Source of the DNA: Westiellopsis prolifica IICB1 | GTDB taxonomy: Bacteria > Cyanobacteriota > Cyanobacteriia > Cyanobacteriales > Nostocaceae | Length of the DNA: 34,787 nucleotides | Reading direction: 5' to 3' | NCBI RefSeq assembly: GCF_004323185.1 | Contig: NZ_NAPS01000001.1 | Location: forward strand, 680,127-714,913 | In this document: piece by piece, positions 153-34,787 of the stretch | How the letters are laid out: each line of letters begins with the position of its first letter | How positions within the stretch are numbered: the stretch's first letter is position 1 | The notes under the pieces: generated by a model | What the model saw: only the letters and a program-made list of their open reading frames with translations | What the model was told of the DNA's origin: nothing | Databases searched by the model: none | Program-made: the position numbers and the translations under genes

Positions 153-1802
153 TTACTGAACTATCACAGCAGATTTTTCCAAATTTGCTACTAATTTCAC
201 ATCAAATTCTGACTCAAATACTCCTTTTTTATAATCCAAATTCCAGAGTTCTAAAGAGCATTGATCATCAGGACGAGATGGGAAAACTCGCATTTTCAAT
301 TCTCGTGTATTTGGAATAAATTCACATTGCAATTCCTGGATTGCTCCGATTTGTCGCCGATCTAGTGCAACTGCTAATCGTAGAATTGCACTCAAATGAC
401 TCACGATTTGTCGGTGTTCTTTGTGTAGCAAATTGCGAAAATTCTCATGTTTTTTCTTGGGTGGGGATTTGCGATGATAACGGGCTATATTGGCGATAAT
501 TTCCATCTCGGTTTCGCTGTAACCGAGCAAGTCGCCGTTACGAATTAAGTAGTATGAATGTTTGTGATGAGAGTCATGGTTGACAAAATGACCACAATTG
601 TGAAGTATTGCCGCAGCCCACAATAATTGTCTTTGTTCACTTTCCCAATTGTGGAGTATGCCTTGAGTTTGATCAAAGATACTTAGGGCAAAGACTGCAA
701 CGCGATCGCTATGTTCTAAGTTGACATGGTACTTCTTAGCAGTTTTAAGCACACTGCGCTGGCGCACCGAACTTTGGTAGCGTAGGCGGTCTTCAATTAA
801 GCCGTGGGTGAGCATCCAGTCTACAATCACGCCTTCACGGAGGGCGCGTTCACAAACTGCGATTGTCTCTAACCCTAACAAATTCATTGCTTCCTGTAAT
901 ATTACTGCCCCAGCCAGTATCACTTCTGACCGTTTCTCTGGCATTCCAGGAATAGTCGCTCGTTCGAGGTTAGTCATTTTCCGCAAACGATTTACCCACT
1001 CCCGCAAGTCTTTGAGGCTAAACTGATAACCATTGAGGGTAGAGGGAACAAAACCTAATTTGTCACGGGCGTTGATCATCGCCAGAGTTTCAATCGAACC
1101 GGATGTTCCTACTAAGCGGGGTTGTTCACCATATTCTAGATTTGCCAGTACTTCTTCTACAGAACGTTCTAACATTCCCCGTGCATAGGCTTGTAGGTAC
1201 TGAAACTCAGCATTACTAATAGGATCGCTGTTAATTAATTCATTTGTCAGGCGAACTGCGCCTATTTTGGTACTGGTGAGAGTTCGTGCTTGGTGAGTGT
1301 CACCCAAAATGAGTTCTGTGGAACCACCACCAATATCAACTATCATGTGGGGTTGGTTATTAAATTCCATCCCCGACAGTACACCCAGATAAATCCGGCG
1401 TGCTTCTTCGGGACCAGATATCAAATCAATGCTCAAACCCAACTCAACTTCTACCTGATGTATAAACTCTTTACCATTGGGTGCTTCTCGGACAGCACTA
1501 GTAGCGACAGCAATGATTGTTTCGACGTTGAGAGTTTTAGCAACTTCTTGGAAACGTCGCAAGCAAGCGATCGCTCTTTCGATCACTTCTGCTTTTAAGC
1601 ATCCTGTGACGAGATCGCGATCGCCCAATCTCACAGTTTCCTTTTCTCTACCAATAATGCTGAATGCTGGTAGTGTTGTTTCAATCCGCACAATTACCAT
1701 GTGCAGAGAATTGGTTCCCAAATCAATCGCTGCGATGATTCGCTGTTGCTTGTCTGTTTGAGTTGGCGTACTCCCCCAGCTAGCAGAAACCAAATTGACC
1801 AT
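153..1802 (-). CDS. ppx: Exopolyphosphatase, Ppx/GppA family with C-terminal HD-like domain
   Basis: This 549-aa protein is predicted to remove terminal phosphate from inorganic polyphosphate and/or (p)ppGpp in the cytoplasm. The actin-like ASKHA fold is shown by the first phosphate loop AAIDLGTNSLHMVIV (residues ~24-38) and the second loop VDIGGGSTELILG (~155). The Ppx/GppA core spans about residues 20-315. It is followed by an HD-type helical domain containing LLWAAAILHNCGHFVNHDSHH (~415-435), the usual two-part architecture of long bacterial Ppx proteins at ~500-550 aa. The start at 1802 gives a short hydrophilic leader before the phosphate loop. It is divergent from ubiA, with a 389-bp spacer containing several TTGACT motifs. 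Family assignment is firm; whether polyphosphate or pppGpp is the main substrate cannot be told from sequence. Confidence 0.93.
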   Translation of the reverse strand: MVNLVSASWGSTPTQTDKQQRIIAAIDLGTNSLHMVIVRIETTLPAFSIIGREKETVRLGDRDLVTGCLKAEVIERAIACLRRFQEVAKTLNVETIIAVATSAVREAPNGKEFIHQVEVELGLSIDLISGPEEARRIYLGVLSGMEFNNQPHMIVDIGGGSTELILGDTHQARTLTSTKIGAVRLTNELINSDPISNAEFQYLQAYARGMLERSVEEVLANLEYGEQPRLVGTSGSIETLAMINARDKLGFVPSTLNGYQFSLKDLREWVNRLRKMTNLERATIPGMPEKRSEVILAGAVILQEAMNLLGLETIAVCERALREGVIVDWMLTHGLIEDRLRYQSSVRQRSVLKTAKKYHVNLEHSDRVAVFALSIFDQTQGILHNWESEQRQLLWAAAILHNCGHFVNHDSHHKHSYYLIRNGDLLGYSETEMEIIANIARYHRKSPPKKKHENFRNLLHKEHRQIVSHLSAILRLAVALDRRQIGAIQELQCEFIPNTRELKMRVFPSRPDDQCSLELWNLDYKKGVFESEFDVKLVANLEKSAVIVQ

Positions 1803-2052
1803 TTATTGTTCTCTCTGTAAATGAAGTAAAAGAAGGCAAAAGCTGACTTGCGGACGATAACAAAGTTTGTTTGTTCACAAAGTAGATAATCAAATTGACT
1901 CTGTTTTTGACTATGCCTGAGTTTTTGACTCTCTCTGTGAGGTCAAGCAAAGTGACTATTTCTTTTGAGTCAAAGTTGCCACTTTAGCTGTTGCTTATAT
2001 AAATATCAAATAAAGTTATTCTATATATGTGAAGATGTGTGAATTAAGGATC

Positions 2053-2090
2053 GGGGATAAGGGATCGGGGATAAGGGATCGGGGATCGGG
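2053..2090 (+). promoter_or_regulatory. G-quadruplex-capable tract upstream of ubiA
   Basis: G-runs occur at 2053-2056, 2061-2063, 2067-2070, 2075-2077, 2081-2084 and 2088-2090, separated by 3-4-nt loops (ATAA, ATC). This fits the G3+N1-7 quadruplex pattern. It is built from a ~14-bp direct repeat (GGATCGGGGATAAG). The C-rich repeat at 2118-2190 is partly complementary, for example GGGATAAGGGA against TCCCTTATCTCCC. Function is inferred only from position, 100-140 bp before the ubiA start. Confidence 0.45.
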
Positions 2091-2143
2091 AGATCCGCAG
2101 AATCTATCAAAAATCTCTCCCTTATCTCCCTTCCAATCCCCTG

Positions 2144-2190
2144 TCCCCAATCCCCTGTCCCCAATCCCCTGTCCCCTTTCCCCTGTCCCC
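2144..2190. repeat. C-rich tandem repeat abutting the ubiA start codon
   Basis: The unit CCCCTGTCCCCAAT recurs about three times, then degenerates to CCCCTTTCCCCTGTCCCCT immediately before the ATG at 2192. It resembles the C-rich short repeats of filamentous cyanobacteria. Because it touches the start codon, there is no purine-rich Shine-Dalgarno sequence upstream of ubiA. Confidence 0.65.
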
Positions 2191-2191
2191 T

Positions 2192-3073
2192 ATGCTCAGT
2201 ACGCCAGAACATAATCAGGAACCTACTTGGCTTGTGATTATCCGATTATTACGGTGGCACAAACCGGAAGGACGTTTAATTTTGATGATACCTGCCTTAT
2301 GGGCTGTATTTTTAGCAGCGTCTGGAAAGCCGCCTCTACCATTGGTGGGCGTAATCATTTTAGGAACGCTTGCTACAAGCGCTGCTGGCTGTGTTGTCAA
2401 TGATTTGTGGGATAGAGATATAGATCCAGAAGTGGAAAGAACGCGCGATCGCCCCCTTGCATCGCGGGCGCTTTCTGTAAAAGTTGGTATTGTGATTGCG
2501 ATCGTGGCTTTAGGATGTGCTGCGGTTGTTGCTTTCTATCTTAACCCCATCTCTTTTTGGTTGTCTGTGGCAGCAGTGCCAGTGATTTTGCTGTATCCAG
2601 CCGCAAAACGAGTATTTCCTGTTCCCCAATTGGTGTTATCAATTGCTTGGGGTTTTGCGGTGTTGATTAGCTGGAGTGCAGTTACACAAAATCTTTCCCA
2701 ACCGACTTGGCTACTTTGGGGCGCGACTGTACTTTGGACGCTGGGATTTGATACTGTTTATGCTATGAGCGATCGCTCTGACGACAAACGTATTGGTGTA
2801 AATTCCAGTGCTTTATTTTTTGGTGATTATGCTGCGATCGCCATTATAGTTTTCTTTACTGGTACTATATTTTGTCTTGCTTGGTTAGGAATAGCTATTC
2901 ATCTTCACCTAGCTTTTTGGTTTAGTCTTGTCGCTGCTACTGCTGGTTGGATTTGGCAGTCTGTTCGCTTAAATCAACAAAATTTACCTAATTCAGCATA
3001 TGGTGAAATGTTCCGACAAAACGTTTGGATTGGTTTCATCCTACTGGCTGGTATGATTTTTGGTAGCTTTTAA
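2192..3073 (+). CDS. ubiA: 4-hydroxybenzoate polyprenyltransferase (UbiA family, plastoquinone pathway)
   Basis: This 293-aa integral membrane prenyltransferase is expected to transfer a polyprenyl chain (solanesyl in cyanobacteria) to 4-hydroxybenzoate, an early step of plastoquinone synthesis. Two Asp-rich motifs are visible: NDLWDRDIDPEVERTRDRPL from N70, and DTVYAMSDRSDDKRIG from D187. They bind Mg-diphosphate in this family. About eight hydrophobic segments separate and follow them. Length matches the family (~290 aa). The N-terminal PTWLVIIRLLRWHKPEGR and LILMIPALWAVFLAA are typical of cyanobacterial UbiA proteins. The ATG at 2192 follows a C-rich repeat directly, so the true start is slightly uncertain; the next in-frame Met lies inside the first conserved segment and is unlikely. 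It is divergent from ppx. Confidence 0.92.
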   Translation: MLSTPEHNQEPTWLVIIRLLRWHKPEGRLILMIPALWAVFLAASGKPPLPLVGVIILGTLATSAAGCVVNDLWDRDIDPEVERTRDRPLASRALSVKVGIVIAIVALGCAAVVAFYLNPISFWLSVAAVPVILLYPAAKRVFPVPQLVLSIAWGFAVLISWSAVTQNLSQPTWLLWGATVLWTLGFDTVYAMSDRSDDKRIGVNSSALFFGDYAAIAIIVFFTGTIFCLAWLGIAIHLHLAFWFSLVAATAGWIWQSVRLNQQNLPNSAYGEMFRQNVWIGFILLAGMIFGSF

Positions 3074-4340: not shown

Positions 4341-4373
4341 AGAACCCCCACTTCTTTAATAAGTGAGGGTTCT
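4341..4373. terminator. Hairpin, possible terminator or repeat
   Basis: GAACCC(C)CACTT pairs with AAGTGAGGGTTC around a short AT-rich loop. There is no clear U-tract, so it may be a repeat-type hairpin and not an intrinsic terminator. It lies ~400 bp past the gene ending at 3934. Confidence 0.45.
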
Positions 4374-13250: not shown

Positions 13251-14522
13251 ATGAAAAAAATCAATATAGGAAAATATCTGAGGTTTGGCGAAAAAGTTTT
13301 GATTATTTCAGGCTTAAGCTTTTTCTCAGGGATATTTGGAACCCAATCAATGGGTATAGTTCTATCTGAGGGATTGATCACCTTCATCAGATTCTCACTT
13401 TGGGGAATATTTACCTTGCTAGTTTTTCTCTTTTGGCAAGATGCGATCGCCATCATCAATCGTAACAAGATACTTTTTATATTAACAGCAATAGCTTATT
13501 TTTCATTTCTCTGGTCAGACTTTCCAGACTATACCTTCCTTAACTCCAGAGATATCTTGATGATGACCAATTTTGGTTTATATTTTGCTATACGATTTAG
13601 CTTGAAAGAACAAATAAAAATTCTTATTTATACTCTCTTGATAGGCATGTGTTTAAGCTTATTTTTTGTGTATGTATTTCCTGGTATAGGGAGACATTGG
13701 GTAGATCATCCAGGAGCTTGGAAAGGAGTATATGGTCATAAAAACTATCTTGGCAGCATGATGGTGTTAAGCTCATTAGCTTTTTTATCTTTGGCGAAAG
13801 ATACTTTGTTGATATACAGAATTTCTGGGCTTTTTCTGTCATTGATATTTATGTTTTTTTCCACTTCAAGAACTTCTCTAGTTCTTTCTTTTATATTAAT
13901 GTTAATTATCATATTCTATAAAAAATTTCGCTGGCGAGGAAAAGTTAGCGTTATTTATATAGATATTACAATTCTACTTTTGGGATGTATTTCCTTACTA
14001 GTTTTTACTTATTGGGTAGAAATAATTACTGGTTTAGGTAGAGACCCAACTATAACAGGGCGGACAATAATTTGGAATGTAGCACTAACTCGATTCATGG
14101 AAAAACCATTCTTAGGTTATGGACGTGGTGCATTTTGGGCGCCTAAAAGTAATTACGCACTTGAAACGAGTCAAGCAATTGGTACAGGCTGGGTTCCACC
14201 TCATGGTCATAATGGCTTTGTTGATACGGCACTTGATGTTGGTTTAATTGGTTTAGGGCTATTTTTATTTTGTTATTTTATGACTTTTGCGAGAGCTTTA
14301 AAATTAGGATATGCGAGTAAAAAGCCAGAAGATATTTGGCCTTTAATATATTTGATATTTTTGGCGATCAACAATATTACAGAGAGTTGTTTATTATATT
14401 TACCTAATCTTTATTGGGTTTTATTTATGACGATTTCTTTTACTATTAACAAAACCAAACCAATAACACATCACAAAAGTATAAACAACAGACCTCTGGT
14501 GAAAAAGAATGTAGAGACGTGA
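13251..14522 (+). CDS. Wzy-like polysaccharide polymerase / O-antigen ligase family protein
   Basis: This 423-aa polytopic membrane protein has about 11 hydrophobic segments. It is predicted to join lipid-linked repeat units on the periplasmic face. O-antigen ligase/polymerase family signs are KGVYGHKNYLGSMM (~160), the long periplasmic loop with GYGRGAFW (~285) and WVPPHGHNGFVDTALDVGLIGLGLF (~310-335). In this locus, with a Wzx-like flippase and Wzc-like protein, polymerase is the better call. Oddly, the last ~11 codons (RPLVKKNVET region) and the stop codon lie inside a MITE-like repeat (14490-14580), so the original C-terminus was probably replaced by repeat-derived sequence. No function is known for that tail, and the last helix is complete before it. 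Confidence 0.88.
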   Translation: MKKINIGKYLRFGEKVLIISGLSFFSGIFGTQSMGIVLSEGLITFIRFSLWGIFTLLVFLFWQDAIAIINRNKILFILTAIAYFSFLWSDFPDYTFLNSRDILMMTNFGLYFAIRFSLKEQIKILIYTLLIGMCLSLFFVYVFPGIGRHWVDHPGAWKGVYGHKNYLGSMMVLSSLAFLSLAKDTLLIYRISGLFLSLIFMFFSTSRTSLVLSFILMLIIIFYKKFRWRGKVSVIYIDITILLLGCISLLVFTYWVEIITGLGRDPTITGRTIIWNVALTRFMEKPFLGYGRGAFWAPKSNYALETSQAIGTGWVPPHGHNGFVDTALDVGLIGLGLFLFCYFMTFARALKLGYASKKPEDIWPLIYLIFLAINNITESCLLYLPNLYWVLFMTISFTINKTKPITHHKSINNRPLVKKNVET

Positions 14523-15600: not shown

Positions 15601-16826
15601 TGCTGGTTAAGACTTTAACCAAAGCTGCTCGTCTTGTGATCAAACCAGGGGAAGCAAAGCTCAATTCCAACTCTCTAAGCGTTAATGATCAATCTAAAAA
15701 AACCATCGCTATTGTTGGCTGTGGCTATGTAGCAGACTATTACCTCAAAACACTTTCCCTGCATCCACAATTACAGATATCAGGAGTAATGGATCGCATT
15801 AGCGATCGCGCATACAAACTTGCTGCGTATTATGGCATTCCTCGTGTTTATGGTTCCTTAGAAGAACTCCTTGATGATTCTCAAGTTGATATCGTCTTAA
15901 ATTTAACTAATCCCAGCAGTCATTATTCTGTTTCTAAAGCTTGTTTAGAAGCTGGTAAACACGTTTATTCTGAGAAACCTTTAGCAATGGAGATGTCACA
16001 AGCTGAGGAACTAGTCAACTTAGCTCAACGACAGGGTTTATATATTTCCTCAGCACCATGCAGTTTATTGAGTGAAACAGCTCAAACAATTTGGAAAGCA
16101 TTGCGAGAAAATCAGGTTGGCACAGTTCGACTTGTTTATGCTGAAATGGATGATGGATTAGTTCACCTTATGCCTTATCAAAAATGGGTGAGTACATCAG
16201 GTACTCCCTGGCCTTATAAAGATGAGTTTGAAGTCGGGTGTACGTTAGAACACGCAGGTTACTATGTGACATGGCTGACTGCCTTCTTTGGTCCTGCACA
16301 GTCAGTCAGCGCTTTTTCATCCTGTCTGATTCCAGATAAACAAACTGAGTTACCCTTAGATATTAACACTCCAGATTTTTCTGTAGCCTGTATAAAATTT
16401 ACATCTGGTGTAGTTGCCAGATTAACTTGCAGTATTGTTGCACCCCATGACCATTCTTTGAAGATTATTGGTGATACGGGTACACTTGGCATTCATGATT
16501 GTTGGTATTATGGAGCGCCAGTTTACATCAGGCGCAGTATCAACATTCGCCGCAAGAGATTTGAAGGTATTTGGAAGCAAAATTATTCACTCGTGAAACC
16601 TGCTCCCCACTTCAAGTATAAAGGCGCCCAGCAAATGGATTTCTGTCGAGGTGTAGCAGATATGGCATCTGCAATCATTGAAAATCGCCCTTGTCGATTA
16701 TCAGCTGAGTTTTCTCTGCACAATAATGAAATTGTACTTGCGATTCAAAAATCTTTAGACACAGGCTCTCCCTATAAATTAACAACTACATTTGAGCCAA
16801 TTGAACCAATGCCTTGGGCAAAATAG
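15600..16826 (+). CDS. Gfo/Idh/MocA family NAD(P)-dependent sugar oxidoreductase
   Basis: This 408-aa cytoplasmic dehydrogenase probably oxidises or reduces a sugar or nucleotide-sugar precursor. After a ~35-residue polar extension, the Rossmann fold opens with IAIVGCGYVADYYL (~38), NLTNPSSHYSVSKACLEAGK (~100) and the catalytic SEKPLAMEMSQAEELV (~125). The C-terminal alpha/beta domain includes the LEHAGYYVTW helix with a conserved His (~220) and FTSGVVARLTCSI (~260). Length is above the 330-380 typical of the family because of the N-terminal extension. Translation is coupled to the preceding GT2 by a TAATG overlap. The stop codon touches the first unit of a 21-bp tandem repeat. Confidence 0.9.
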   Translation: MLVKTLTKAARLVIKPGEAKLNSNSLSVNDQSKKTIAIVGCGYVADYYLKTLSLHPQLQISGVMDRISDRAYKLAAYYGIPRVYGSLEELLDDSQVDIVLNLTNPSSHYSVSKACLEAGKHVYSEKPLAMEMSQAEELVNLAQRQGLYISSAPCSLLSETAQTIWKALRENQVGTVRLVYAEMDDGLVHLMPYQKWVSTSGTPWPYKDEFEVGCTLEHAGYYVTWLTAFFGPAQSVSAFSSCLIPDKQTELPLDINTPDFSVACIKFTSGVVARLTCSIVAPHDHSLKIIGDTGTLGIHDCWYYGAPVYIRRSINIRRKRFEGIWKQNYSLVKPAPHFKYKGAQQMDFCRGVADMASAIIENRPCRLSAEFSLHNNEIVLAIQKSLDTGSPYKLTTTFEPIEPMPWAK

Positions 16827-16993
16827 ACTTACATTGCGAATGTATCGACTTACATTGCGAATGTATCGACCTACATTGTTAATGTATCGACCTACATTGT
16901 TAATGTATGGACTTACATTGTTAATGTATCGACCTACATTGTTAATGTATCGGCTTACATTGTTAATGTATCGACTTACATTGCGAATGCAGC
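16826..16993. repeat. 21-bp tandem repeat, eight units, each a hairpin
   Basis: Units begin at 16826, 16847, 16868, 16889, 16910, 16931, 16952 and 16973. The consensus is GACYTACATTGTTAATGTATC. Within each unit TACATT pairs with AATGTA around a 3-nt loop (GTT or GCG), giving eight successive small hairpins. The array begins on the last base of the oxidoreductase stop codon and occupies most of the gap to the epimerase gene. Because 21 is a multiple of three, both strands show spurious open frames of a seven-residue repeat; I do not regard them as genes. Confidence 0.88.
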
Positions 16994-20984: not shown

Positions 20985-21005
20985 GTTGTGTTACGCCAAA
21001 GGCTA

Positions 21006-21097
21006 ATACCATTTCACGTTAATCGCGATACATATAAATTTTGTTCCAGACGCGATATATCGCGTCTCTACGGGTCTGTATTTGTATCAGATTTTTT
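21006..21097 (+). mobile_element. MITE-like element, family 2, copy 1
   Basis: ATACCATTTCACGTTAAT, GCGATACATAT and CCAGACG, then CTGTATTTGTATC near the right end, align with the reverse complement of 21951-22062 at most positions. The inner palindrome here is AGACGCGATATATCGCGTCT (21048-21067), unlike copy 2. The right terminal repeat is lost or diverged where the methyltransferase leader begins. Confidence 0.7.
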
Positions 21098-21846: not shown

Positions 21847-21879
21847 AGATCCCCGACTTTTTCAAAAAGTCGGGGATCT
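21847..21879. terminator. 33-bp hairpin repeat, copy 1 (between convergent genes)
   Basis: AGATCCCCGACTTTTT pairs perfectly with AAAAAGTCGGGGATCT around a single C. It lies 44 bp after the methyltransferase stop and before the convergent metalloprotease gene. The T-run and A-run allow bidirectional termination. Copies occur at 30435-30467 and 34516-34548. Confidence 0.7.
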
Positions 21880-21950: not shown

Positions 21951-22062
21951 CTTATACCATTTCACAAAAATCTTGATACAAATACAGGTGTGTACCAGAC
22001 GTAGCATTGCTACGTCTGGTACAAGATTCATATGTATCGCTATTAACGTGAAATGGTATAAG
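21951..22062 (-). mobile_element. MITE-like element, family 2, copy 2 (112 bp, 15-bp perfect TIRs)
   Basis: CTTATACCATTTCAC (21951-21965) and GTGAAATGGTATAAG (22048-22062) are perfect inverted repeats. A 31-bp near-perfect palindrome sits between them (21992-22022, GTACCAGACGTAGCA...TGCTACGTCTGGTAC). There is no coding capacity. It is inverted relative to the copy at 21006-21097. It ends 6 bp before the metalloprotease stop codon. Confidence 0.8.
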
Positions 22063-22068
22063 TCCTAA

Positions 22069-24771
22069 TTATCTTGAAAGCAATCGGGCGTTTAATGCTT
22101 TGGTGATGCGATCGCTTGTTTCTTCAAGATGAGCTAGTGTATAAATATCAAGATTTTCATTTTGGTACTTCAGGCTAGTATCAATGGCTTGGCGTAGTTG
22201 GCGCAATTCAAACCAAGCTAGTGTTCGCCCATCTTCTGGTACATCTGTAGTACGCAACACCATATCGAGCAAAATATCTAAGTGTTCTCGCTGCAAGGAA
22301 CGACGGATACTAGAAATTGGTTTTGCTTTTCTAGCATCTACAACTTCTGTCCAAATGTCTTTTTGCAGAGTGTTGAACAATTCTGGCATGGAAAGCGCTT
22401 TTCCGGCGGTTGTTTTGAATTCGATATCCCTCAGACGGTTAAGGCGATCGCTATCTAAAAGCGATCTTAATATAACACCTTGAAAACGCTGAATACGTTC
22501 GTGAATTGGATAATCAAGGCGAGATACAGGTATAAAGTTACCCCAGTGTTGCCAACGTGAAGGTGCTAGCTGATTCAATAATTGTGGCGAAAAACTGAAA
22601 GCATCCTCAGCAAATACATATTCTTGCAGTTTTGCTAATACCTGACGTTGCTGTTCTAGAGAAACTGCTACAAAACTGGGGCGCATATTTTCATCAGCAT
22701 GATGACGCTCAAAAGATTGTCCACCTATATATTGAGTCAACAAAGACGCATTCCGAAAATAATATTTGAGAATGCTGTTAAACAAGACCCGCAAGTTACT
22801 ATAACTTTCTCCTCTTACAGGGTAACGCTGATCAAGACGCTGCCACATAGCGCGAGCATTATCCATTTGCCATTGGGAATAAACTAGCACATCACTACTT
22901 ATATCCCAAACATTTGCCAGAGGATTGATATCCCAGATATCTTCATCTGTTGCGTAAGATAATTCTGGTTGCAAAGACGCCAAAGCAATCTTTTCCAAAA
23001 ACTCTTTTTCAGCTTCGGGAATTACTGTTTCTGCTGTCAAATTTTGGTGAGGTTTGTAACCATACTCAATTGCCCATTCATCGTAAGGGCCAACAACTGT
23101 GGGAAAATAGTCGCCTTGCTGTGTTCCTTGAGGTGCTATATTCACAGGCAAATAATCCATCACTGAACCGACCAAACCCTTGGTATGAGTGATTTCTGTG
23201 TTATTTAATTCCTGGGGTGCTAACATAGTGCTGCCGTGGAAATTGTGACGCAAACCTAGTGTGTGTCCGACTTCGTGAGCAATGAGAGAACGTATATATT
23301 GATGTAAGTATTCTTTCATTTGATCACTACTTGGTGTCGCATCTTGCAAAAGTGACAACGCCAGCGCCCCCATCGCTGCTTGGGTTGAAGATTCCATCCC
23401 ATAGCAGAAGTCAGAATCTTGTTGAGAAGTAGAGACGCGATGAATCGCGTCTGTACAATTGTGATTCATCGCGTCTGTACTTGACTCCATCAAAGCACGA
23501 TATTCTTGCTGAATTGAGCGCACCATATTAGCATCAACAATAATATCTGCGTCTAAAATTTCTCCTGTTAGGGGGTTAACGCGGGCTGGGCCTCTAGCAA
23601 AACCTGCATCTAAAGAATTGAACCAGCGAATTGTGTTGTAGCGCACATCTGCTGGATGCCAATCAGCATCATCTGGCATTTGTCGGACTTCAATCGCATT
23701 TTGAAATCCTGCTTTGGCAAATGCTTGATTCCACATCAGCACACCTTCCCGCATGGCGTCGCGATATTCTAATGGCACAGCATTTTCAATCCAAAATATT
23801 ATTCGTTTTTTCGGTGGAGATAAAGGTGCATTGGGATCAGACGGTTCAAGATGCCAACGATTTATATAACGTACAAATGATTCTTTGCTGTTATTATGAG
23901 AAAAATCTTGAAAAGCAGTAATAAAATATCCTACTCTATCATCAGCAAGTCTAGGGATGTAACCATTGTTTTCGGGTAGTTGGGAAAAACTGTAGTGTAC
24001 TTTTAAAGTTAACGCTCTGCTATCAGGTAATGTAACTAAATATGCTCCCTCTGGTGATGAAAAGCTGTAGATAGATTCAATCTCTAAGTTCAGAGGAAAG
24101 CTGTCAATATCACCAAAATATGACCTATTTTTTTCCAGGTGGTAATCAGCCCGCAAATAATATTTTAATAAAGAAGTTAATCCGGGAAAATCCTGTATCA
24201 GTAAGTCATTGAGGTCAATCAGAATATTTTTATTATATGGATCAATACTGTCAATTTCCAGAGCATAAAGAACTGAATCACTAAATGAGCGAGCAAGCGA
24301 TCGCAATTCTGGTTCATCTTGTTCTGTACGGAATTTAACATTACGAACAACAAAATGCAAATGATTATTTACTCGTCGGAAGTAAAACAGAAAATCTTGC
24401 AGAGGTAGTCCACTATAAATTCCACTTTCTCCAATCCCAGATTCTAGTGTGACTGTACAAAGATAATTTTTATTAAGTTGTTCTGGCTTCAGTTCCAAAA
24501 ATATTTTATCGTCTTCCTGACTACGATAAATTGTGAAGACTCCGTCTAATTTATTCGTTCCTTTGACTGCCTCACGAAATCGCCAAAAATCTTCTTTTCT
24601 GCTTTCTTTAAAATTATAATCAGTACTTGCTAATTGTTCAATACCTGGTAATGTATTGAGTTGCTGTACATAAATATCTGCCATTTGATTAGCCAATGCA
24701 TAATTATTACCAAATAGCAAGTAATAAAATAACAATATATATACAGTTAACTTTGCGATCCAGTTATTCAT
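22069..24771 (-). CDS. Secreted zinc-dependent metalloprotease (DUF5117-type, metzincin-like)
   Basis: This 900-aa exported peptidase starts with a signal peptide (hydrophobic ~8-24, likely cleavage after YALA at ~27). The N-terminal half is beta-rich (KVHYSFSQLP, DDRVGYFITAF). The catalytic block is HEVGHTLGLRHNFHGS, HExxHxxGxxH with His499, His503 and His509, preceded by the zinc-protease fold region VLMWNQAFAKAGF (~345). A long C-terminal helical region follows (to 900), as in the large metzincin-like proteins of bacteria. Oddly, residues ~431-448 (TDAMNHNCTDAIHRV) are encoded by a dispersed palindromic repeat inserted in frame at 23429-23480. The gene is convergent with the methyltransferase. 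Peptidase activity is expected; substrate is unknown. Confidence 0.88.
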   Translation of the reverse strand: MNNWIAKLTVYILLFYYLLFGNNYALANQMADIYVQQLNTLPGIEQLASTDYNFKESRKEDFWRFREAVKGTNKLDGVFTIYRSQEDDKIFLELKPEQLNKNYLCTVTLESGIGESGIYSGLPLQDFLFYFRRVNNHLHFVVRNVKFRTEQDEPELRSLARSFSDSVLYALEIDSIDPYNKNILIDLNDLLIQDFPGLTSLLKYYLRADYHLEKNRSYFGDIDSFPLNLEIESIYSFSSPEGAYLVTLPDSRALTLKVHYSFSQLPENNGYIPRLADDRVGYFITAFQDFSHNNSKESFVRYINRWHLEPSDPNAPLSPPKKRIIFWIENAVPLEYRDAMREGVLMWNQAFAKAGFQNAIEVRQMPDDADWHPADVRYNTIRWFNSLDAGFARGPARVNPLTGEILDADIIVDANMVRSIQQEYRALMESSTDAMNHNCTDAIHRVSTSQQDSDFCYGMESSTQAAMGALALSLLQDATPSSDQMKEYLHQYIRSLIAHEVGHTLGLRHNFHGSTMLAPQELNNTEITHTKGLVGSVMDYLPVNIAPQGTQQGDYFPTVVGPYDEWAIEYGYKPHQNLTAETVIPEAEKEFLEKIALASLQPELSYATDEDIWDINPLANVWDISSDVLVYSQWQMDNARAMWQRLDQRYPVRGESYSNLRVLFNSILKYYFRNASLLTQYIGGQSFERHHADENMRPSFVAVSLEQQRQVLAKLQEYVFAEDAFSFSPQLLNQLAPSRWQHWGNFIPVSRLDYPIHERIQRFQGVILRSLLDSDRLNRLRDIEFKTTAGKALSMPELFNTLQKDIWTEVVDARKAKPISSIRRSLQREHLDILLDMVLRTTDVPEDGRTLAWFELRQLRQAIDTSLKYQNENLDIYTLAHLEETSDRITKALNARLLSR
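23429..23480. repeat. Dispersed palindrome inside the metalloprotease coding region
   Basis: GTAGAGACGCGAT...ATCGCGTCTGTAC (23429-23456) is followed by AATTGT and another half-copy (GATTCATCGCGTCTGTAC, ending 23480). The first 34 bp match the intergenic copy at 34400-34433 with one mismatch. On the minus strand it is open and encodes about 18 residues within the metalloprotease. Confidence 0.82.
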
Positions 24772-30434: not shown

Positions 30435-30467
30435 AGATCCCCGACTTCTTAGAGAAGTCGGAGATCT
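30435..30467. terminator. 33-bp hairpin repeat, copy 2 (between convergent genes)
   Basis: AGATCCCCGACTTCT pairs with AGAGAAGTCGGAGATCT. The interior differs from copies 1 and 3 but still pairs. It lies 72 bp after the M15-like gene and faces the cyanophycinase gene. Confidence 0.65.
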
Positions 30468-34399: not shown

Positions 34400-34433
34400 G
34401 TAGAGACGCGATAAATCGCGTCTGTACAATTGT
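34400..34433. repeat. GAGACG-family palindrome, intergenic copy
   Basis: GTAGAGACGCGAT...ATCGCGTCTGTAC followed by AATTGT. It matches the copy embedded in the metalloprotease gene (23429-23462) at 33 of 34 positions. Confidence 0.8.
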
Positions 34434-34515
34434 CATTAGTCATTTGTAGCTGGAGACTATAAGCAATAATCAAAATATTTCTAGTGATCTATCAGATTGA
34501 TTTTGCTGGGTTGCA

Positions 34516-34548
34516 AGATCCCCGACTTTTGAAAAAAGTCGGGGATCT
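34516..34548 (+). terminator. 33-bp hairpin repeat, copy 3 (after cphA2)
   Basis: AGATCCCCGACTTTT pairs with AAAAGTCGGGGATCT. It is located 135 bp past the cphA2 stop. Same length and arms as copies at 21847 and 30435. Confidence 0.65.
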
Positions 34549-34688: not shown

Positions 34689-34787
34689 CCAAAATGCTTT
34701 TTGTATGCGCCAAAATGCTTTTTGTATGCGCCGAAATCATTTTTGTATGCGCCGAAATCATTTTTGCGCTCGCCGAAATCATTTTTG
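34689..34787. repeat. 21-bp tandem repeat, four full units plus a partial one
   Basis: Units start at 34689, 34710, 34731, 34752 and 34773. The consensus is CCRAAATSMTTTTTGTATGCG, with unit four ending GCGCTCG. The two halves change in concert (AAAATGC in units 1-2, GAAATCA in 3-5). The array continues past the window edge. It resembles a short tandem repeat tract, not a CRISPR array, because there are no spacers. Confidence 0.85.

Follow-up and report, generated by a model that had tools for sequence, protein, structure and literature searches.

A dispersed palindromic repeat in frame in a hypervariable loop of a cyanobacterial Met-zincin protease

We found that a dispersed palindromic repeat lies in frame in the gene of a Met-zincin metalloprotease encoded in the window (the whole stretch of 34,787 nucleotides that was analysed), in a loop where orthologues from other genera carry repeats of other kinds. 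The explanation that best covers the evidence as a whole, and that we consider very likely, is that a tolerant loop has been entered repeatedly by dispersed repeats, the window palindrome among them. The loop, flanked by one helix ending at about residue 433 and another beginning at about residue 459, would be neutral and tolerate many in-frame sequences, and dispersed repeats would have entered it many times. The palindrome would have arrived a single time, presumably by transposition, in an ancestor shared by three sampled members of the genus, and its target would most likely have been an existing heptamer array. Selection would remove copies that break the frame and leave those that preserve it, and the window gene would later have lost the rest of the old loop, including a conserved cysteine. 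Because the palindrome encodes Cys439, the window protein still has a cysteine in the loop.

The window protease belongs to the DUF4953 Met-zincins, as its Pfam match lies far over the cut-off (1.5e-85, 287.7 bits against 24.2) and it carries an HExxH motif. Within this motif, H499, E500, G502 and H503 were invariant and V501 nearly invariant among 47 sequences. DUF5117 matched at 1.4e-35, and DUF5118 at 4.7e-05 (23.5 bits, under the cut-off of 27). A sequence search of solved structures with the protease gave nothing useful (best E 0.029), and NCBIfam held no family for it. Judged by eye, its N-terminus looks like a signal peptide. An AlphaFold2 model computed from 47 aligned sequences reached a mean pLDDT of 57.9 and a pTM of 0.43, with the loop predicted as coil between helices 414-433 and 459-473 and block means of 23-28 at residues 431-460. 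This prediction fits a flexible loop and proves little, since the model is poor and cannot place the cysteines. A paralogue in the same genome (L304, G000:C1:1533100-1535900), grouped with L305-L323, is 56-60% identical, has a better conserved loop and keeps both of the cysteines described below.

Table 1 Coordinates of the protease gene, its loop and the repeat copies in the window.
Feature	Position	Strand	Basis
Met-zincin metalloprotease gene, 900 aa	22069..24771	-	ORF; Pfam DUF5117, DUF4953, weak DUF5118
HEVGH zinc-binding motif, residues 499-503	23263..23277	-	sequence, alignment
Hypervariable loop, residues 429-461 (putative repeat sink)	23389..23487	-	bin-length variation; repeat matches
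Codon 456 (TGC, Cys of the CYG motif), probable disulfide partner	23404..23406	-	sequence, alignment
Full 28-bp GTAG-ended palindromic repeat unit	23429..23456	.	sequence; repeat comparisons
Codon 439 (TGT, Cys): last two palindrome bases and one spacer base	23455..23457	-	sequence, alignment
7-bp spacer between the two repeat copies	23457..23463	.	first six bases, AATTGT, also follow the 34400 copy
17-bp half copy of the palindrome	23464..23480	.	inverted arms 23427-23446 / 23463-23482, 95%
Intergenic copy of the same repeat family	34400..34437	+	95% over 38 nt against 23429-23480

An earlier note on this DNA had described a 52-bp repeat copy at 23429-23480, in frame in the coding region, about 50 residues ahead of the HExxH site and nearly identical to an intergenic copy at 34400. 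Each of these points was borne out: the frame runs uninterrupted through 900 amino acids, the insert lies 51 residues ahead of the motif, and the intergenic copy agrees as listed in Table 1. The 52 bp are made up of a 28-bp palindrome, a 7-bp spacer and a 17-bp half copy of that palindrome. These bases touch codons 431 to 448 of the protease, and the peptide TDAMNHNCTDAIHRV forms residues 432-446. Weaker relatives of the palindrome occur in the window at 14511 and 21044. Across the genome (7.3 Mb in 29 contigs), the palindrome pattern with up to three mismatches gave 334 forward and 342 reverse matches, and the reversed pattern, used as a control in the same genome, gave none. Because each palindrome is found on both strands, these figures stand for roughly 340 genomic places, and matching by chance is excluded. 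The 28-bp copy in the gene fits the searched pattern without a mismatch.

The palindrome has the size and distribution of a small REP: its 28 bp fall in the 20-40-bp class, and its many copies are mostly intergenic. It ends in GTAG, yet many copies show CTAC at the other end, so that GTAG is part of the palindrome itself. In random samples from 15 related genomes, only one of 41 REP-like copies lay well inside an ORF of at least 200 amino acids, against the 65.5% of bases that such ORFs occupy; genic copies are therefore rare or mostly purged. We inspected 29 exact-pattern copies together with the 1.5 kb flanking each of them on both sides. Open frames longer than 700 codons hold two of them (in the window protease and L016), six lie in or at the edge of frames of 100-250 codons, and 21 in shorter ones; the copies in L003, L005, L008 and L009 lie within TGGTCAT-type arrays. 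Over the 16 possible centres of the palindrome, one reading frame is open in all 16, one in 13 and one in none. One frame is free of stops on both strands whatever the two central bases, and the palindrome thus suits selection that preserves the frame.

Other repeats were also seen in the window. Two MITE-like pieces with ATACCATTTCAC ends lie at 21003-21097 and 21951-22062, the first surrounding the palindrome relative at 21044, and ends similar to ATACCATTTCAC flank palindrome copies in L015, L020 and L024; some copies may therefore be carried within a larger element. Another dispersed family of palindromes (AGATCCCCGACTT...AAGTCGGGGATCT) is intergenic at 4341-4373, 21847-21879, 30435-30467 and 34516-34548, and tandem arrays outside long ORFs span 16823-16989 (unit 21), 34689-34772 (21), 1-126 (20-21) and 2133-2188 (14 bases). 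The genome has four Y1_Tnp transposase genes. L303 (1111-1914, minus strand) matched REP_Tyr_transpos at 71.9 bits, under the cut-off of 80, and the distance to one palindrome copy is about 1.1 kb; no REP-like match was found at the other Y1 transposase loci, L300-L302. L303 is a candidate only, both as a REP-associated tyrosine transposase and as the mobiliser of the palindrome.

The window, which lies in Fischerella or adjoining it, has relatives that allow the insertion to be placed in time. The closest named ones are Fischerella muscicola PCC 73103, Pelatocladus maniniholoensis, Fischerella PCC 9431 and F. muscicola PCC 7414. In a gene tree built without the loop, the window gene, PCC 9431 (L032) and PCC 73103 (L060) stood apart from Pelatocladus (L031) and the outgroups (support 96). 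The palindrome stands at the same codon in these three genes and is absent from L031, L061 and L033 (F. muscicola PCC 7414); it is present in three of the four sampled members of the window's genus and absent from the fourth and from the nearest outgroups. The simplest reading is therefore a single inherited insertion, whose frame was preserved over a synonymous divergence of 0.27-0.33. With the gene intact and otherwise conserved, the insert absent from relatives and shared by three members of the genus, and dN/dS near 0.1, the comparison supports the earlier proposal that a non-coding palindrome became part of an intact coding sequence.

The same note had stated that the copy adds about 18 residues (431-448), or exactly 18 codons. 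The codons occupied are as described, but the history is not. At the insertion site, L060, which retains most of the old loop, has a block of 66 nt against 9 nt in L031, a net gain of 57 nt or 19 codons, and we rejected the figure of exactly 18. The distance from the DADI motif to HEVGH was 97 residues in the window protein, 119 in L031, 115 in L032 and 138 in L060 (6 of 70 loci were left out, the motif not being found). The window protein is thus 22 residues shorter over this interval than its repeat-free sister L031, despite the insert, because most of the ancestral loop sequence is missing. The loops of L031 and L061 contain what appears to be a decayed GTCAATG-type heptamer array. Because of these array-like loops and the genomic copies within TGGTCAT-type arrays, we think it probable that a heptamer array was in place first and received the palindrome.

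We next consider the loop across orthologues. In keeping with the earlier note, this particular insertion was absent from most of them; the flanking residues, which had been expected to be contiguous, were for the most part not, and most orthologues have some other variable stretch at that place. Among 69 aligned orthologues (1 of 70 left out), the bin of residues 421-440 varied from 9 to 20 residues in length (SD 2.9) and the bin 441-460 from 10 to 91 (SD 16.8). The other 20-residue bins with an SD above 2 were 681-700 (8.6) and 861-880 (4.6), and most were constant within a residue. When 15 orthologue genes were each compared with 160 kb of random DNA from their own genome (E up to 0.001), all 53 matches fell in the loop, in five of the 15 genes, and none elsewhere in those 15 genes; in this count a palindrome can match one place on both strands. 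When 110 orthologue genes were compared with a pool of random DNA (2.4 Mb, 15 genomes), we obtained 390 matches in 16.5 kb of loop (21 of the 110 genes) versus 69 in 289 kb outside it (27 of the 110). The repeat-match density of loop DNA is about 100 times that of the rest of the gene. The 110 genes include five duplicate pairs (105 genes when merged), none of which has a repeat match. Of 122 distinct genomic places matched by loop DNA, 13 lay inside an ORF of at least 150 amino acids. Among the 40 listed of the 69 matches outside the loop, many lie near residue 690 (L077/L236, L078), and a shared match of 22-24 bases to one place in L176 was seen repeatedly. Near residue 690 the protease has another variable site, in L077, L236, L078 and L265, with about 50 extra residues and in part with matches to heptamer repeats.

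The excess of repeats in the loop was modest when genes were compared under the strictest rule, which requires at least two distinct intergenic partners in the own-genome sample: 2 of 15 DUF4953 genes passed, versus 8 of 958 random genes of at least 250 amino acids (Fisher p 0.009). In the pooled comparison, 89 of the 110 loops had no match to the sampled repeats, and much of the loop's diversity may therefore be drift or decayed repeats. On a tree of 107 of the 110 genes, the presence of a repeat match in the loop required 12 changes, a number that missed repeats inflate, versus a mean of 19.4 when labels were shuffled. The repeats are therefore partly inherited and partly new. One missed repeat is that of L068, which had no match in the pooled comparison, yet its hairpin core recurs elsewhere in its genome.

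The repeats themselves differ in kind. The loop of G048 holds a different palindrome, with 126 forward and 129 reverse matches in its genome and none for the control, and that of G074 a palindrome with six genome matches, its own copy included. A hairpin occupies the loop of G005, and heptamer arrays, of the general kind named STRR in cyanobacteria, occupy those of G116, G135 and G108. Within one genus, the hairpins in the loops of G092 and G061 share a position but are different, and G111, G011 and G142 have no insert. The hairpin cores of G092 and G061 recur in these genomes; the long insert pattern of G061 has only its own copy in the G061 genome and two in that of G092. From these comparisons, the loop appears to be a recurrent sink for repeats, of unrelated kinds in different genera.

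The same palindrome was found in a second protein of the window's genome. L016 (G000:C1:966246-969273) contains an M16 peptidase (frame 657-3026) with the palindrome in a linker, read in the same frame as in the window protease and giving the peptide RDAINRVST. The M16 linker carries the palindrome in the window's genome (G000), G057 and G004 and lacks it in G008. Across 28 of 30 aligned orthologue loci the linker is variable, often with heptamer-type peptides, and 2 of 7 M16 genes passed the strict own-genome test. The repeat sink is therefore not special to the Met-zincin.

We then analysed the cysteines of the protease in 138 sequences (from 170 loci, with 5 left out and identical frames merged). 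The window protein has three cysteines, of which those at columns 439 (124 of 138) and 456 (131 of 138) are conserved and that at 105 is not (14 of 138); 56 of the 138 sequences also have a cysteine in the Tyr11 column, close to the N-terminus. All 131 sequences with the cysteine of the CYG motif have at least one loop cysteine. That cysteine is absent from seven sequences, six of which also lack a loop cysteine, and the seventh, L043, keeps one alone. The association was scored at Fisher 8e-10 (with the sequences treated as independent despite kinship and duplicates), and the seven sequences fall in about two lineages, hence about two independent losses. This pattern suggests a conserved cysteine pair that brackets the loop and forms a disulfide. 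The loop cysteine of L031, L032 and L060 lies in an AEC motif, a stretch that is gone from the window protein; the codon aligned to 439 encodes Gly in L032 and Cys in L060. Cys439, the upstream cysteine of the pair, from the palindrome-derived codon, is the sole loop cysteine of the window protein and probably pairs with Cys456. A bolder proposal, which we offer tentatively and think rather doubtful, is that the palindrome has been exapted: it would supply the Cys439-Cys456 disulfide after deletion of the ancestral cysteine, and the loop would be a landing site through which the protease family repeatedly takes working parts from the repeat stock.

Variation of the loop might also have been favoured in its own right, with repeats feeding a selected hypervariable module that adjusts how easily the active site is reached or how well the enzyme resists proteolysis. 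Its length variation, by far the largest in the protein, the several kinds of repeat in it and the repeat-encoded cysteine in place of a conserved one would all suit such a module. However, the M16 linker behaves alike, which fits tolerance equally well, and the loop of the paralogue is better conserved, and we regard selection for variability as unlikely. Somewhat less probable still is that an RNA hairpin in the transcript, affecting mRNA stability or translation, is what matters and that the peptide is a by-product. The coding strand at 23420-23490 does fold strongly (-29.7 kcal/mol, z -5.6, none of 200 shuffles as good), but the same would be expected of every copy of such a palindrome, and only three sampled orthologues carry it, other lineages having unrelated sequence and some of them heptamer arrays.

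It seems very improbable that the window gene is decaying into a pseudogene, with the insertion as debris. Outside the loop, dN/dS was 0.07-0.11 across all ten pairs from five genes and 0.087-0.105 between the window gene and four relatives, values of about 0.1 that indicate purifying selection. The window gene is open over its 900 amino acids (22069-24771, minus strand), without a stop or frameshift, and keeps the HExxH residues. Single in-frame stops do occur in three more distant orthologues, G002 (TGA), G003 and G122 (both TAG), at L079, L048 and L051. The earlier note had named frameshifts as a sign of decay and a like peptide with non-repeat codons in all orthologues as a sign of convergence; the window gene has no such lesion, and the orthologues lack such a peptide. 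Convergence or ordinary drift, by which low-constraint coding sequence chanced to resemble the repeat, would agree with the variable loop of type A orthologues and with the 89 of 110 loops without a repeat match, but is scarcely credible beside a mismatch-free 28-bp copy with a 17-bp half copy, 334/342 genome matches versus zero for the control, genes that differ by a whole block (66 nt in L060, 9 nt in L031) and sites without the insertion in L031 and L061. Repeated entry of dispersed repeats into a tolerant loop remains the preferred reading.

In-frame palindromes are already known; what seems new is one loop holding unrelated repeats across genera, together with the apparent replacement of a conserved residue by a repeat-encoded one. 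In a search of the open-access literature, we recognised no description of this loop or of repeat-filled loops in DUF4953 or M16 proteins. The known in-frame palindromes are mostly isolated examples, with unclear consequences for the protein. The protease loop offers a natural series, with recognisable repeats of several kinds in 21 of 110 orthologue genes, relatives with an empty site, and one case in which a repeat seemingly took over a conserved residue. This series makes it directly testable whether non-coding repeats in a protein are useful or merely tolerated.

Among known systems, the window insertion resembles the Rickettsia palindromic elements (RPEs), short dispersed palindromes that form in-frame parts of conserved genes and are reported in 19 reading frames, in the part of that account available (PMC2229807). 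There, a guanylate kinase bearing an RPE was translated and active with its insert. RPEs measure 105-146 bp (PMC2229807), against a unit of 28 bp plus a half copy in the window, and, unlike in the RPE account as far as available, a single loop of a single gene is occupied by different repeat families from genus to genus. Nostoc GGGGA(C/T)T heptamers were described in a study of G-quadruplexes and gene regulation, according to the available portion of which 68% of the G-rich repeats in PCC 7120 are intergenic and the rest intragenic (PMC4692102); the arrays in the G116, G135 and G108 loops are heptamers of this general cyanobacterial kind, mostly of other sequences. By description, the window palindrome, GTAG-ended and intragenic, also resembles GTAG-tagged REPs (PMC3733652). 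The accessible sections of that work report families GTAG-12, -15 and -16 in Anabaena and Nostoc and in-frame palindromes for GTAG and CGTC REPs, with intragenic GTAG-REP dimers or groups encoding 20-30 residues. They also place REPs at about the same site in recB of X. campestris and X. oryzae, and the authors suggest that REPs insert in flexible linkers or loops (PMC3733652). The protease differs from the accounts given in those sections in that one loop is used by unrelated repeats and a conserved residue appears to have been replaced by a repeat-encoded one.
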